From Promethearchaeota archaeon (GTDB lineage Archaea; Asgardarchaeota; Lokiarchaeia; Sigynarchaeales; MK-D1), in the NCBI GenBank assembly GCA_016839865.1, contig JAEOTN010000213.1, positions 1 through 5,438 of the forward strand: a stretch of 5,438 bases of DNA. The letters are read 5' to 3'. Shown here in pieces: positions 631 through 5,438 of the stretch. The position numbers and the translations under genes were made by a program. The notes below the pieces were generated by a model that saw nothing but the letters and a program-made list of their open reading frames with translations, was not told the origin of the DNA and searched no databases. Each line of letters starts with the position of its first letter. The first letter of the stretch is position 1.

Positions 631-1104
631 ATGAAAATATTAGTTGTATACTATACTAGAACCGGGAATACAAAAACCGTAGCAGAGCATATTGCGAACG
701 AGCTTAATGCTGATATTGAAGAGATAATAGATATGAAAGCTAGAACTGGTGTAGTTGGTTCAGCGAGTGCGTACCTTCGACCACGGGCAACAACTACGAT
801 AGAAGAAATCAAACATAATCCAAAAGACTATGATGTAGTTATTGTAGGGGGGCCAATATGGTGGTTCTCCAGTGTCCCAGCGGTTAATACTTTTATCAGT
901 GATTATAAAGAGCAAATTAACAAAGCAGCATTCTTTTACTCGTTTGATAAAGATACTCGAAATCGTATTAGTGCTTTTCCAGATATGGAAGAATTTTTAG
1001 GTAAATCTCCTGTTGCAACGGTTTCTGCGGAATCAAGGACGATTAAAGATGGTTCGTATAAGAAAAATTTTGAAGACTTTATTCAAAATATTAAAAAATC
1101 ATAA
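631..1104 (+). CDS. Flavodoxin family protein (short-chain, FMN-binding)
   Basis: This is a 157-residue, single-domain flavodoxin-like fold, predicted to be a soluble cytoplasmic electron carrier or FMN-dependent oxidoreductase. The N-terminal strand MKILVVYY leads into the FMN phosphate-binding loop TRTGNT (residues 9-14), followed by the helix KTVAEHIANEL. DYDVVIVGGPIWW (67-78) is the third strand and the loop that usually packs against the isoalloxazine ring. Two tryptophans (W77, W78) lie there. KAAFFYSFD (98-106) is the fourth strand, but the usual glycine-rich loop after it is absent. The C-terminal helix (about 143-155) ends KKS. The length fits short-chain flavodoxins, which lack the extra loop of the long-chain class. 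The redox partner is unknown, and nothing in the neighbourhood identifies one. The gene converges on the double-zinc-ribbon gene and overlaps its end by 6 nt. Fold and cofactor class are confident; the precise role is not. Confidence 0.92.
   Translation: MKILVVYYTRTGNTKTVAEHIANELNADIEEIIDMKARTGVVGSASAYLRPRATTTIEEIKHNPKDYDVVIVGGPIWWFSSVPAVNTFISDYKEQINKAAFFYSFDKDTRNRISAFPDMEEFLGKSPVATVSAESRTIKDGSYKKNFEDFIQNIKKS
1093..1098 (-). terminator. T6 run directly after the double-zinc-ribbon stop (minus strand)
   Basis: On the minus strand, TTTTTT follows at once after the TGA stop (1101-1099). It lies inside the last codons (lysine AAA codons) of the convergent flavodoxin gene. It is a plausible T-run terminator for the leftward transcript. 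Confidence 0.35.
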
Positions 1105-1437
1105 GCCACGTGCTTTTTTTAAACGAGCTTGGCGCAATTTTCTTTCCTTTTCCCATTTATTCCCACAGTTCTTGCAAAACATGCCAAAAAGAGTCGGATC
1201 TTCACTTTGAAATGGTTTTGCACAATTTACACATGCAGTATGATATTGATAATAGTACACTTCAGCATCTCTGTCAATTCTTAGGTCAAGCTCTTTTTTA
1301 CGACTACATTCACTGCAAAATTTTCCGGATAAAACTGTTTCCATGTCTGTAAATGGAGTTCCACAGTTTAAACAATACGTTACCTGAAATTGATACCATA
1401 TCGGTTTAGAATTTCTTCGAATTTTCTCCACAAGCAT
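1099..1437 (-). CDS. Double zinc-ribbon protein of unknown function
   Basis: This is a 112-residue basic protein with two zinc-ribbon units. The first has CLNC (C22, C25) and FCSEC (C41, C44). The second has CVNC (C69, C72) and FCKNC (C88, C91). In both units the knuckles are separated by 15 residues containing an aromatic plus a glycine-x-F-C turn, so the units look like diverged duplicates. The linker (about 46-66) is charged and contains a YYYQY patch. The C-terminus (94-112) is rich in lysine and arginine and probably helical. Such proteins often act in nucleic-acid or protein binding, but no named family is recognised. The ATG at 1437-1435 is the only good start: an in-frame TAG lies eight codons upstream (complement of 1459-1461), and a later start would lose the first ribbon. 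GAGGAG is present but sits only 1-3 nt from the ATG. The gene lies 47 nt downstream of uvrA on the same strand. Confidence 0.8.
   Translation of the reverse strand: MLVEKIRRNSKPIWYQFQVTYCLNCGTPFTDMETVLSGKFCSECSRKKELDLRIDRDAEVYYYQYHTACVNCAKPFQSEDPTLFGMFCKNCGNKWEKERKLRQARLKKARGL
1114..1120 (+). terminator. T7 run after the flavodoxin stop
   Basis: Seven T residues begin 10 nt after the TAA at 1102-1104, just after the palindrome CACGTG (1107-1112). They lie antisense within the last codons of the convergent zinc-ribbon gene. A T-run in this place is a plausible archaeal-type terminator for the flavodoxin transcript. Confidence 0.4.
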
Positions 1438-1484: not shown

Positions 1485-4475
1485 TTAAGTGCTTTTTATT
1501 GCGTCCTTGGTTGATTTAACTGAATTACCATCAGATGAAGATGGTTGTGCTAAGGTGGATTCCAACACTTTTTTCAGATATTGACCCGTATAGGATTTTT
1601 TCATATCTGCTATCTCTTCAGGAGTACCAGTTCCAATAATTCTTCCACCATTTTCTCCTCCTTCTGGTCCCAGATCGATAAGATAATCTACAGATTTAAT
1701 CACATCAAGATTATGTTCAATTACAACAACCGTGTTACCCTGATCAACCAATCGCTGGAGTACTCGGATTAAGATTTTCACATCGTGCATATGAAGACCT
1801 GTCGTACATTCATCTAGTACATAAAGGGTGTTTCCAGTAGATCTTTTACTCAATTCTCTAGAAAGTTTCATTCTCTGGGCTTCACCACCACTTAAAGTCG
1901 TGCTGGATTGACCTAATTCGATATAACCCAAACCTACATCTACAACAGTTTGGAGTATTCTTTTGATCTTTGGATGATTTTCAAAGAATTCCAATGCTTG
2001 GTTATGGGTCATTCGCAGAATATCATATATGCTTTTACCCTTGTATTTAACTTCAAGTGTCTCCTGATTGTATCTCTTCCCCTTACAGACGTCGCATTTT
2101 ACGTATACGTCTGGCAGGAAATGCATCTCAATGAGATTATAACCTAATCCTCGACATTTTTCACATCGACCCACTTTGACGTTAAAAGAGAACCGACCCT
2201 TCTTATATCCTCGAATTTTTGCTTCCTCTGTCTTTTCAAACGTATCTCGTATGAGATCAAAAGCTTTCGTATATGTTGATGGGATTGATTTAGGTGTTCG
2301 ACCTATAGGTCGTTGATCAATATTTATCACTTTATCGATGTTATCCAGACCCTTGATGTCATCAAAATTAATTTTCACATGTTTTTTCTTTCTGCGAAAC
2401 TCTTCACTAACCGCTTCAAGGAGGACTTGCTGAATAAGACTCGATTTCCCTGCTCCTGAAACTCCAGTAACACAAGTGAATATTCCCAGAGGAATCTTTA
2501 CATCAACGTTTTTGAGGTTATTTTCTCGAGCCCCGATAATTTCTAAAAATTCTGTATCCTTCGTTATTGCTCTACGTTTCTTCGGAAGGCAAATTTGTTT
2601 TTTACCTGATAGATATTGACCAGTAATGGATTTAGGATTTGATTCAATTTGATCTATTGTTCCCGCCTCGACGATGTGTCCTCCCTTCTCTCCACCATAG
2701 GGTCCAATATCAACAATGAAATCAGATGCTCGTATCACATCTTCATCATGTTCTACAATAAGAACTGTATTACCACGTTTCTTTAATTCTTTAAGCATTT
2801 TGATAAGTTTAGATTTATCTTTCGGGTGCAATCCGATTGTTGGCTCATCTAAGACATAGAGTACTCCTACAAGATTTGAACCTATTTGTGTCGCGAGTCG
2901 AATTCTCTCAGATTCACCACCACTTAATGTTCGGGCAACTCGATCCAAAGTAATATAGTCTAGACCAACGTTTTTCAAGAAGGAATACCGTGCATCAATC
3001 TCTTTCAAGATATCCCTAGCAATCTTCTTTTCTCGCTTATTGAGTTTCAATCCTTTAAACCATCGGATTGCCTCGGAAACATAAAGTTCGCATACTTCCC
3101 AAATATTCTTACCTTCCAAGGTTACAGCGAGGCTAATGGGTTTTAATCTTTTACCATTGCATGCTGTGCATCTCGTGTCAGTCATGAACTGTTCATACCA
3201 CTGGCGCATCCCTGGTGATTTAGTTCTCATATACCTGTTTTGGAGAGTTGGTATAATTCCGCGAAAAGGTCGTTTTGCTTTGAAGCTAAAATGAGTCTCA
3301 TCGTCATCATAATCTTCTGAGTCCTCATCAACTCCTCCATTTTTTTCGTAGGAAAACAATATCTTCTCTTTACCGGTTCCGAACAGAAACTTATCCCAAA
3401 AAGTATCAGGTAGGTTTTTGATAGGTTGATTCAAATCCACTTCATAGTGATCTGCTAAAGATTCAATACTTCTCCAGCTCCACGTACCTAAAGTCCCAAA
3501 TCCTCCGACTCTTCGCAACCCACTCTCATATAATTCAACGTCTGTATCAGGAAATATCTTAATTTCATCAAAATTAAGTACTCGACCGAGTCCCTTACAA
3601 TATGGACACATTCCGTAAGGCGTATTAAACGAAAAATCACGGGCTTGCAATTTCTCATATGATAAGCCACAGTCAGGACAGAAGAAATGTTCGGAAAAAA
3701 TTCGAGATTCACCATCAACAATTGCAATCTCAACTAATCCTTCAGTTAAGGATAATGAAGTCTCCACTGAGTTTGCCACACGTGAGCGAAACTCGTTATC
3801 CTCTTCGCTTTTCATAATAAGTCTATCAATTACCACGGAAATATCGTGCTTAATGTTCTTATCTAATGAGATGGGGTCTTCTAATATGTACTCAATTGCT
3901 TCTTTTCCTTGATCTTGGATAATTACCCGTGAATACCCACTTTTTCTTAATTTGAGAAACAATTTCTCGTAAGTTCCTTTCTTCCCTCTGATAATAGGAG
4001 CAAGTATTTTGAATTTTATCCCTGTTTTCAATGATTGTAAGATTTCATGAATAATCTCTTGACTGCTCTTCGGAGTTATTTCTTTTCCACATTCAGGGCA
4101 ATGAGGAGTTCCAATATTAGCCCACAACAATCGTAAATAATCATAAATTTCTGTAACTGTACCTACAGTAGATCGAGGATTTTTACTAACTGTTTTTTGT
4201 TCAATGGCAATCGCCGGACTCAAACCTTCAACAGTATCCACATCAGGTTTATCCATCCCTTCAAGAAACTGACGGGCATACGCTGATAATGATTGAAGAT
4301 ATCTGCGTTGCCCCTCGGCATAAATTGTGTCAATAGCTAAGCTGGACTTTCCAGATCCACTTAAACCTGTAAAGGTAACCATCTTATCTCTAGGGATATT
4401 CACATCTATGTTCTTTAGGTTATTCTGACGTGCTCCTTTAACTACAATCCACTTACCATTTCCATTTTTTGCCAT
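1485..4475 (-). CDS. uvrA: UvrA, ATPase subunit of the UvrABC excinuclease (nucleotide excision repair)
   Basis: This complete 996-residue UvrA dimerises, scans DNA for bulky lesions with UvrB, and loads UvrB for UvrC incision. Cassette I has Walker [10 protein letters not shown] (37-45), signature LSGGESER (517-524), Walker B LYVLDEP (539-545) and H-loop His576. Between the two halves of cassette I lie an extra CPEC (126-129), the first zinc module (C266, C269, C290, C293) and the insertion domain. CTAC follows at 436-439. Cassette II has Walker [10 protein letters not shown] (671-679), the DNA-binding zinc finger (C771, C774, C794, C797), signature LSGGEAQR (861-868), Walker B LYVLDE (884-889) and H-loop His920. 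The [12 protein letters not shown] block (719-730) is also present. Oddities are Cys890 where DEP is normal, an acidic insertion (382-393), and a Ser/Lys-rich tail of about 25 residues; the total is longer than the roughly 940 of E. coli. The ATG at 4475 is chosen because an in-frame TGA lies six codons upstream. Neither uvrB nor uvrC is in the window. Confidence 0.98.
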
Positions 4476-4633: not shown

Positions 4634-5438
4634 TCACAAATATAGATCGCTCTTGGGATCCTCTTCTTTTTTCTCTTCAAGAGGAAAAGCATCATCATCC
4701 AGTAACTGGACAATCTCATATTGTAATTCTTTTCCATGTCTATCGAAAACAACCAATTGATCTAATGAGCTCTCACCATGAGCACTCCCGAGTATCATAT
4801 TGATGTAGTAGATCCGAAAAGTTTGACGATCTTGGTCACTCGGATCAGCAGGTCCAAGGGTATGGGAGTGCAAAAAACCACAAACGCTTGTATCATCAAA
4901 CGGAAATTGGTCACTGTAAAATCCAGTAGCAAAAGGTGTACTGAAATATCGTCCAGGTAAGCGAATTCGCCAGATTATCCATCGATCTAATTGGATAAAT
5001 GCCCCCATTTCATTCGGTGCATGTTCTCTAGCTGTCTGTTTTACCATATTCAGAAATTGTTGAGAAATCTGAATTTTCCCAAATCCATAAAATCCCAAAC
5101 AAGCTTTTAGCTCTACTAATACTTCAGCAATGCTATATGGTTGCATTTCTGACCAAGTTCGTAGAAAGTGGAGTCTTTGATGAAGTGTTTTATCGTCAAA
5201 TTTCTCCTCTATAAAATATGGAAACTCAAAAGTTGGAGGTTTTGGATACTCGGTTAAGTTCATTATAACATTGTAACCATTACTGAAGTCAACTGTAAAC
5301 TTGTTAGATTCGGAATCAAATTCTTCAACAGTGAATTTTTCCTGAACCAATTCAATTTGCTGAGTAATGCTTATGATGTTCTTAGAAACTTGATTCTTTA
5401 AATCCGAAATCCTCTTTTTTAATTCCGGAGGTGTGTAC
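4634..5438 (-). CDS. E2/RWD-like domain fused to JAMM/MPN+ metalloprotease (deubiquitinase-like), N-terminus beyond right edge
   Basis: The frame is open from the right edge to the TGA at 4636-4634, giving 267 visible residues. A TTG at 5350 could start a 238-residue version, but 29 further codons upstream lack a stop and read as a charged helix (ELKKRISDLKNQ), so the true start probably lies outside. Numbering from the TTG, residues 1-88 look like a ubiquitin-conjugating E2 or RWD fold: strands FTVEEF, KFTVDF and YNVIMNL, the hallmark YPKPPTFEF (35-43), then W66 and the helix SIAEVLVELKACL. No cysteine lies at the E2 catalytic position (around residue 58), and no HPN is seen. Residues 90-215 are a JAMM domain with Glu114 (NEMGAF) and HSHTLGPADPSDQD (161-174), an exact HxH-x7-S-x2-D zinc site (H161, H163, S171, D174). 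The tail is acidic. The family cleaves isopeptide bonds of ubiquitin-like modifiers (Rpn11, CSN5, AMSH, bacterial JAB proteins). Catalytic competence and the modifier are inferred; no modifier, E1 or E2 gene is visible here. Confidence 0.85.
   Translation of the reverse strand, partial: YTPPELKKRISDLKNQVSKNIISITQQIELVQEKFTVEEFDSESNKFTVDFSNGYNVIMNLTEYPKPPTFEFPYFIEEKFDDKTLHQRLHFLRTWSEMQPYSIAEVLVELKACLGFYGFGKIQISQQFLNMVKQTAREHAPNEMGAFIQLDRWIIWRIRLPGRYFSTPFATGFYSDQFPFDDTSVCGFLHSHTLGPADPSDQDRQTFRIYYINMILGSAHGESSLDQLVVFDRHGKELQYEIVQLLDDDAFPLEEKKEEDPKSDLYL

Follow-up and report, generated by a model that had tools for sequence, protein, structure and literature searches.

The stretch of DNA analysed here (referred to as the window) comprises the 5,438 nucleotides of contig JAEOTN010000213.1 from a Promethearchaeota archaeon (assembly GCA_016839865.1), and it raises the question of what a single archaeal chain could do in which a fold of the ubiquitin-conjugating (E2) type stands directly before a JAMM metalloprotease. 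A preliminary description of the window had proposed that the protein encoded at 4634–5438, here called RWD-JAMM, fuses an E2/RWD-like domain in cis to a complete JAMM protease. The open reading frame (ORF), of 267 amino acids (aa), was found at this place on the minus strand (4634–5437); it is open at the window end, no stop codon precedes the 267-residue frame inside the window, and the gene extends past that end. The fusion was borne out by an intact zinc motif and by sequence profiles, and the first domain contains no conserved Cys. Beyond the evidence of that description, we found that the protein is larger in relatives (AN1 and TPR-like parts), that it belongs to an archaeal-phylum family with a zinc-less class, and that it neighbours uvrA. 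We consider it fairly probable that RWD-JAMM is a single-chain zinc JAMM isopeptidase acting on ubiquitin-like tags, in which a catalytically dead E2 fold serves for binding or scaffolding and the AN1/TPR parts for recruitment. The gene shows the following features:

4634..5438, minus strand: RWD-JAMM protein, C-terminal 267 aa, 5' end beyond the window (ORF call, relatives, alignment)
5378..5437, minus strand: helical stretch ahead of the RWD-like domain, residues 1–20 (helix 4–20 of the predicted model; alignment)
5084..5368, minus strand: RWD/UEV-like domain without conserved Cys, residues 24–118 (model topology, profiles, conservation columns)
5234..5248, minus strand: YPKPP signature, residues 64–68 (motif position; conservation)
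4706..5077, minus strand: JAMM/MPN+ metalloprotease domain, residues 121–244
5009..5011, minus strand: JAMM catalytic Glu, residue 143 (alignment, conservation)
4829..4870, minus strand: HSH-x7-S-x2-D zinc motif, residues 190–203 (conservation, motif search)

The JAMM protease domain

The second half of the window protein carries the JAMM/MPN+ signature (Glu plus H-x-H-x7-S-x2-D), with the Glu in PNE (residues 141–143) and the zinc motif HSHTLGPADPSDQD at residues 190–203. Conservation was counted, here and below, in 62 aligned family members: the residue is retained in 54 of them at each of E143, H190, H192, S200 and D203, and 8 members differ at each position. The pattern H[ST]H-x7-S-x2-D occurred in none of 1137 composition-shuffled ORFs; before shuffling, 104 of these ORFs, which derive from partly overlapping loci chosen for such genes, had it. 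Since it was absent from the shuffled set, the zinc motif is not a product of chance. Pfam Prok-JAB matched the window ORF with 27.0 bits (cut-off 25). A structure was predicted from the 62-sequence alignment with a mean confidence (pLDDT) of 88, and a prediction from six long forms, with a pLDDT of 44, was discarded. The second half of the retained model is predicted to adopt the MPN fold, and the structure-library matches fall on this JAMM half. Whole-family profiles of 26 and 62 sequences retrieved only JAMM chains and chance rows among solved structures, the solved JAMMs closest by sequence being AfJAMM and not Rpn11.

The RWD/UEV-like domain

In the predicted model, the first half consists of a helix (24–32), four strands (36–41, 46–50, 56–60 and 69–71) and helices at 82–88, 90–93 and 103–116, the last of these being the C-terminal helix that had been described for this domain. 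A helix followed by four strands and further helices is the order of RWD/UEV domains. The signature motifs are YPKPP (64–68) and LRTW (92–95). P65 and W95 are invariant (62/62), the latter being the conserved downstream Trp noticed earlier; Y64 is kept in 58 of the 62 members, and of the 60 members with a letter at position 68, 53 have P68. The YPxPP hallmark of the preliminary description thus stands for the window but not as a family rule, the family consensus being YPKKP. No catalytic Cys is conserved: between residues 20 and 120 the number of sequences with Cys never exceeds 9 of 61 in any alignment column, and for this reason the domain seems not to be a functional E2.

The relation to the UBC/RWD/UEV superfamily, besides the YPxxP...W signature, is a profile relation that runs through a repeat, R1, of other proteins. 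R1–R4 are RWD-like repeats of proteins from the same phylum, mostly 550–630 aa long and with a RING-like end. In profile–profile comparisons (hhalign), the window-type domain matched R2, R3 and R1 at 99.1, 98.4 and 82.5%, respectively, all controls (shuffled, reversed, JAMM, TPR) staying at or below 6.3%, and R4 at 0.3%. A profile of the domain enlarged by R2 and R3 aligned to R1 with a score of 62.4 (97.0%), compared with a best score of 18.7 (4.0%) in 40 column shuffles, and R1 in turn matched Asgard E2s at 93.9%. The same enlarged profile gave 0.2% against Asgard E2s and 4.7% against R4; its 95.4% against the JAMM profile is ascribed to profile rows running on into the start of the JAMM domain. 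When R1 was included (domain plus R1–R3), E2, UEV and BRCC45 chains filled the first 24 of 45 rows in a search of solved structures, with a best E of 0.0013 and BRCC45 at E 0.035, and Pfam scans of the 38 single rows of that alignment gave UQ_con in 8, UEV in 4, RWD in 4 and BRE in 2. Pfam also recognised the multi-repeat proteins themselves, with UQ_con at 36.3 bits (cut-off 27) in L030, where the best stretch was the first repeat, and RWD at 28.4 bits (cut-off 22.8) in L025. On these results, residues 24–118 very probably belong to the UBC superfamily.

The multi-repeat proteins (L030, L032, L025 and L177–L196; about 350–630 aa, with several RWD/UBC-like repeats) deserve mention in their own right. 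Many of them have a RING-like C-terminus by eye, the Pfam RING score being below the cut-off where scanned, and they are possibly E3-like or ubiquitin-binding.

Family distribution, zinc-less class and long form

A search with the 26-sequence profile was carried out in 227 genomes of a relative's phylum. Some match was obtained in 91 genomes; matches covering both domains (start at or before 40 and end at or after 236 of 264) were counted by hand among the matches listed, giving at least 49 loci in at least 46 genomes, and JAMM-only and RWD-only matches occurred in further genomes. Among 49 distinct proteins, 39 keep H[ST]H-x7-S-x2-D and 10 have lost it. Loss of the zinc site in homologues, which had been named as a possible argument against the original proposal, does occur, in a separate clade and not in the long forms: the 8 zinc-less proteins included in the 62-sequence tree form one clade with support 100. 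These paralogues retain the RWD domain. One copy of each class is present in G001, G132 and G145, whereas the remaining 43 of the 46, whose completeness is not given, showed only one of the two classes.

Eight of the 10 zinc-less loci (L099–L104, L106 and L053, from G134, G147, G143, G146, G142, G145, G132 and G129) adjoin hypE- and hypD-like genes of hydrogenase maturation, HypE and HypD being confirmed by NCBIfam in L099 and recognised by eye in the rest; those of G001 and G086 are not beside hyp genes. As a further observation, L043 (G118) encodes, besides a complete RWD-JAMM gene, a 70-residue RWD-like piece (6902–7111) some 1.9 kb away from it, perhaps a decayed copy.

The first seven relatives of the window protein share 61–67% identity with it; six of them are 414–464 aa long, P0007 is a JAMM piece of 154 aa, and an eighth relative (P0008) has 474 aa. 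Where an organism is given, it is Promethearchaeota or Lokiarchaeota, which suggests a Lokiarchaea-like genome for the window as well. At the N-terminus, the longer relatives have in addition an AN1 zinc finger, TPR-like helices that score weakly in Pfam, and a stretch resembling a coiled coil. AN1 (PF01428) scored above the cut-off in P0002, P0003, P0005 and the L001 protein and below it in P0001; P0004 and P0006 as given do not contain the AN1 part, and the corresponding region of the window gene lies outside the window. Eight long forms group together in the tree, with support 35 at the reported node. A long-form profile matched in 59 of the 227 genomes, in many cases only by its AN1/TPR part or only by its RWD part. 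L003 (976–2016, G001), where AN1 scores below the cut-off, and L020 (1423–2298, G086) encode separate proteins of AN1-TPR-like type that match the long-form N-terminus and lack RWD-JAMM.

The uvr neighbourhood and ubiquitin-system genes

On the minus strand of the window, reading from 5437 downwards, the RWD-JAMM gene is followed by uvrA (4475–1485) and by a gene for a zinc-ribbon-like protein (1437–1099):

1485..4475, minus strand: uvrA, following the RWD-JAMM gene on the same strand after 158 bp (NCBIfam UvrA, 1384 bits)
1099..1437, minus strand: zinc-ribbon-like protein after uvrA (counterpart after uvrA in L001, 58% identity)

In L001, a locus of a Lokiarchaeota metagenome-assembled genome and the one long-form locus available besides the window, the order is uvrB, long form, uvrA and zinc ribbon, with UvrB confirmed. 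The succession JAMM, uvrA, zinc ribbon is common to the window and L001, at protein identities of 61, 79 and 58%, respectively, and the gap before uvrA measures 158 bp in the window and 178 bp in L001. The open frame of the L001 long form continues from the uvrB stop, with AGGAGG about 25 bp past this stop; the start codon may be the TTG at 9344 or, as the first ATG of the frame, that at 9479. Among the best 30 uvrA loci of the 227 genomes, uvrB lies directly upstream in 17 and further off in 5, and it was not seen within the flank in 8, including G001, where the JAMM gene intervenes; as read from the table of loci, G001 is the only one of these 30 with the JAMM gene in that place. A general link of the RWD-JAMM family to uvr genes was rejected on this count and because short forms adjoin unrelated genes. 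Two side observations concern the uvr genes: the small zinc-ribbon-like protein after uvrA recurs in the window (1099–1437) and L001 (14009–14341), and some genomes (G180, G181, G184, G192, G201, G217–G219, G222; G009, G012, G057, G058, G062) contain tandem uvrA-like matches about 10–65 bases apart or single frames of 1919–1972 aa, perhaps fused double UvrA.

Other members lie in different settings. In L041 (4913), L048 (9657) and L049 (9546) a short form and the stop of a TtuA/NcsA-like gene overlap in ATGA, and a ThiF/MoeB-like gene is found about 3.5 kb away. In L041, the one of the three whose neighbours were scanned, ThiF scored far above its cut-off, PP-loop ATPase above its cut-off, and the TtuA model below its cut-off (211 of 450 bits). 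In L047, a ubiquitin-family gene (16320–16568; 29.2 bits, cut-off 25.4) ends in GGY and lies about 6 kb from the RWD-JAMM gene; it also gave a weak Rad23 match, far below the cut-off. A search for ubiquitin-like, E1-like and true E2 genes, as advised in the preliminary description, found them in the genomes of relatives: G001 has a ubiquitin operon in the order ubiquitin, E1, E2 and JAMM, and among 19 genomes searched UQ_con matched in 18 (none in G117) and ubiquitin in 18 (none in G089). The possibility that RWD-JAMM is the sole JAMM of its genomes was discarded, since PF01398 was present elsewhere in 19 of 19 genomes of a second, overlapping set.

Proposed function and alternatives

The function that we favour is based on the zinc motif, the predicted JAMM fold, the family-wide conservation, the profile link to UBC and the ubiquitin-like, E1-like and E2 genes of relatives. 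The JAMM domain would bind zinc and cut the peptide or isopeptide bond after a ubiquitin-like tag; the dead E2 fold (RWD/UEV-type) directly before it would hold the tag or its carrier, scaffold the JAMM domain, or both; and recruitment of a substrate or partner would fall to the AN1 finger and the TPR-like helices of the long form. Several points weigh against this proposal. Protease activity and tag binding are attributed to RWD-JAMM from sequence. Only 1 of the 227 genomes yielded a full-length long form, and the uvr link was seen in one neighbourhood only besides the window. The ubiquitin operon of G001 includes a JAMM of its own, and the genome has further JAMM genes, so that RWD-JAMM need not act on that ubiquitin. 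The remaining points concern the first domain, and would also fit an unrelated alpha+beta domain at residues 24–118 in which YPxPP is coincidental: the window's own domain matched no UBC-type Pfam family; searched alone with HMMER against solved structures, it gave no E2/RWD among 3 rows; without R1 (domain plus R2/R3) the best E2 row (E 0.67) fell below an unrelated transposase row (0.041); a direct comparison with Asgard E2s reached 1.5% (hhalign); and the 50 rows listed from each of two structure-library searches contained no E2/RWD chain, the rows of one of them spanning residues 114–254 and thus barely covering the RWD half. The match of the enlarged profile to R1 over its shuffles, the E2/UEV/BRE chains heading the search with R1 and the predicted order of helices and strands make such a coincidence very improbable.

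The other alternatives concern what the chain acts on, how and where. The tag could be a modifier of the sulfur-carrier type (SAMP/Urm1-like), in which case the family would be a housekeeping protease resembling desampylases and not a ubiquitin protease, as the TtuA/NcsA- and ThiF/MoeB-like genes beside short forms and the closeness to AfJAMM would suggest; however, L041, L048 and L049 are closely related to one another, the long form lies in a different setting and relatives also hold true E2s and ubiquitin, so we regard this as rather unlikely. It is possible, though less likely than not, that the RWD domain is purely structural, serving JAMM dimerisation or partner binding (compare the binding of Abraxas by the UEV-N of BRCC45) with no contact to the tag: zinc-less paralogues keep this domain, and the two classes of G001, G132 and G145 could pair like MPN+/MPN- partners, but a single class was seen in the other genomes. 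The adjacency to uvrA suggests that the putative isopeptidase may work at DNA-repair complexes. Nevertheless, it is slightly more likely than not that the gene has its place between uvrB and uvrA by coincidence and that its product takes no part in excision repair, given the solitary G001 locus and the unrelated neighbours of short forms, even though the L001 frame continues from the uvrB stop and the gene order is kept between the window and L001. It is a speculative and improbable extension that the long form is an archaeal DNA-repair deubiquitinase, made with UvrB and UvrA, that edits ubiquitin-like tags at excision-repair complexes. If true, it would be a one-chain pre-eukaryotic counterpart of the JAMM and UEV/RWD machinery used by eukaryotes at DNA damage. 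The locus itself is an early indication that a protease acting on ubiquitin-like tags may stand beside excision-repair genes.

Comparison with known systems

The statement that conjugation and deconjugation modules usually sit on separate proteins needs qualifying, since single chains with E2, E1 and JAB modules were described from bacteria in 2006 (Iyer 2006, PMC1779556, in the part available). These share with RWD-JAMM an E2 fold and a JAB on one chain; they differ in having an E1 domain, whereas RWD-JAMM is archaeal, without E1 and in another gene setting, and no E1 (ThiF) domain was matched in the window ORF, P0001–P0007 or the L001 protein. The same part of that source also mentions, for JABs of operon type 6d, an alpha+beta domain at the N-terminus in which Arg and Trp are conserved; this resembles the LRTW of RWD-JAMM and, from the description only, is a lead. 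An E2 fold and JAB in one bacterial chain are thus known already; no description of the archaeal RWD-JAMM chain was found in titles and abstract openings of the open-licence literature. The archaeal JAMM proteases AfJAMM (AF2198), PfJAMM1 and CsRpn11 aligned to the JAMM half of the model alone (from residue 111 on), with no RWD, TPR or AN1 part aligned. In the multi-RWD proteins of the same phylum, repeats R2 and R3 match the RWD-JAMM domain and a RING-like end replaces the JAMM. Asgard UEVs and an Asgard ubiquitin system are likewise known (PMC9192718 and PMC10936438, as far as available), and ubiquitin binding is reported for Vps23-like UEV proteins (PMC9192718), whose main text does not contain the word JAMM; these share a dead E2 fold and the phylum with RWD-JAMM, but are ESCRT-I proteins.

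The comparison with BRCC45 made in the preliminary description found support in the weak profile resemblance given above and in Pfam BRE, which matched weakly in 3 of 62 family members (best E 0.014); the relation to BRCC36/BRCC45 thus consists of weak or fold-level matches. According to a review, BRE (BRCC45) consists of a UEV-N, an RWD and a UEV-C domain, and its binding of ubiquitin, together with MERIT40, has a Kd of ~20 uM (PMC7692841, available part). The RWD domain may hold a ubiquitin-like substrate, as had been proposed, and RWD-JAMM would at most by analogy work like the BRCC36 and BRCC45 pair. In both cases a JAMM protease is associated with UEV/RWD folds, on separate chains of a large complex in BRISC and BRCA1-A and on a single chain here. 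The JAMM proteases of eukaryotic BRISC and BRCA1-A act with separate UEV/RWD subunits; with both folds on one Asgard-type chain, and with zinc-bearing and zinc-less classes, the RWD-JAMM family offers a small testable system for the assembly of these modules.
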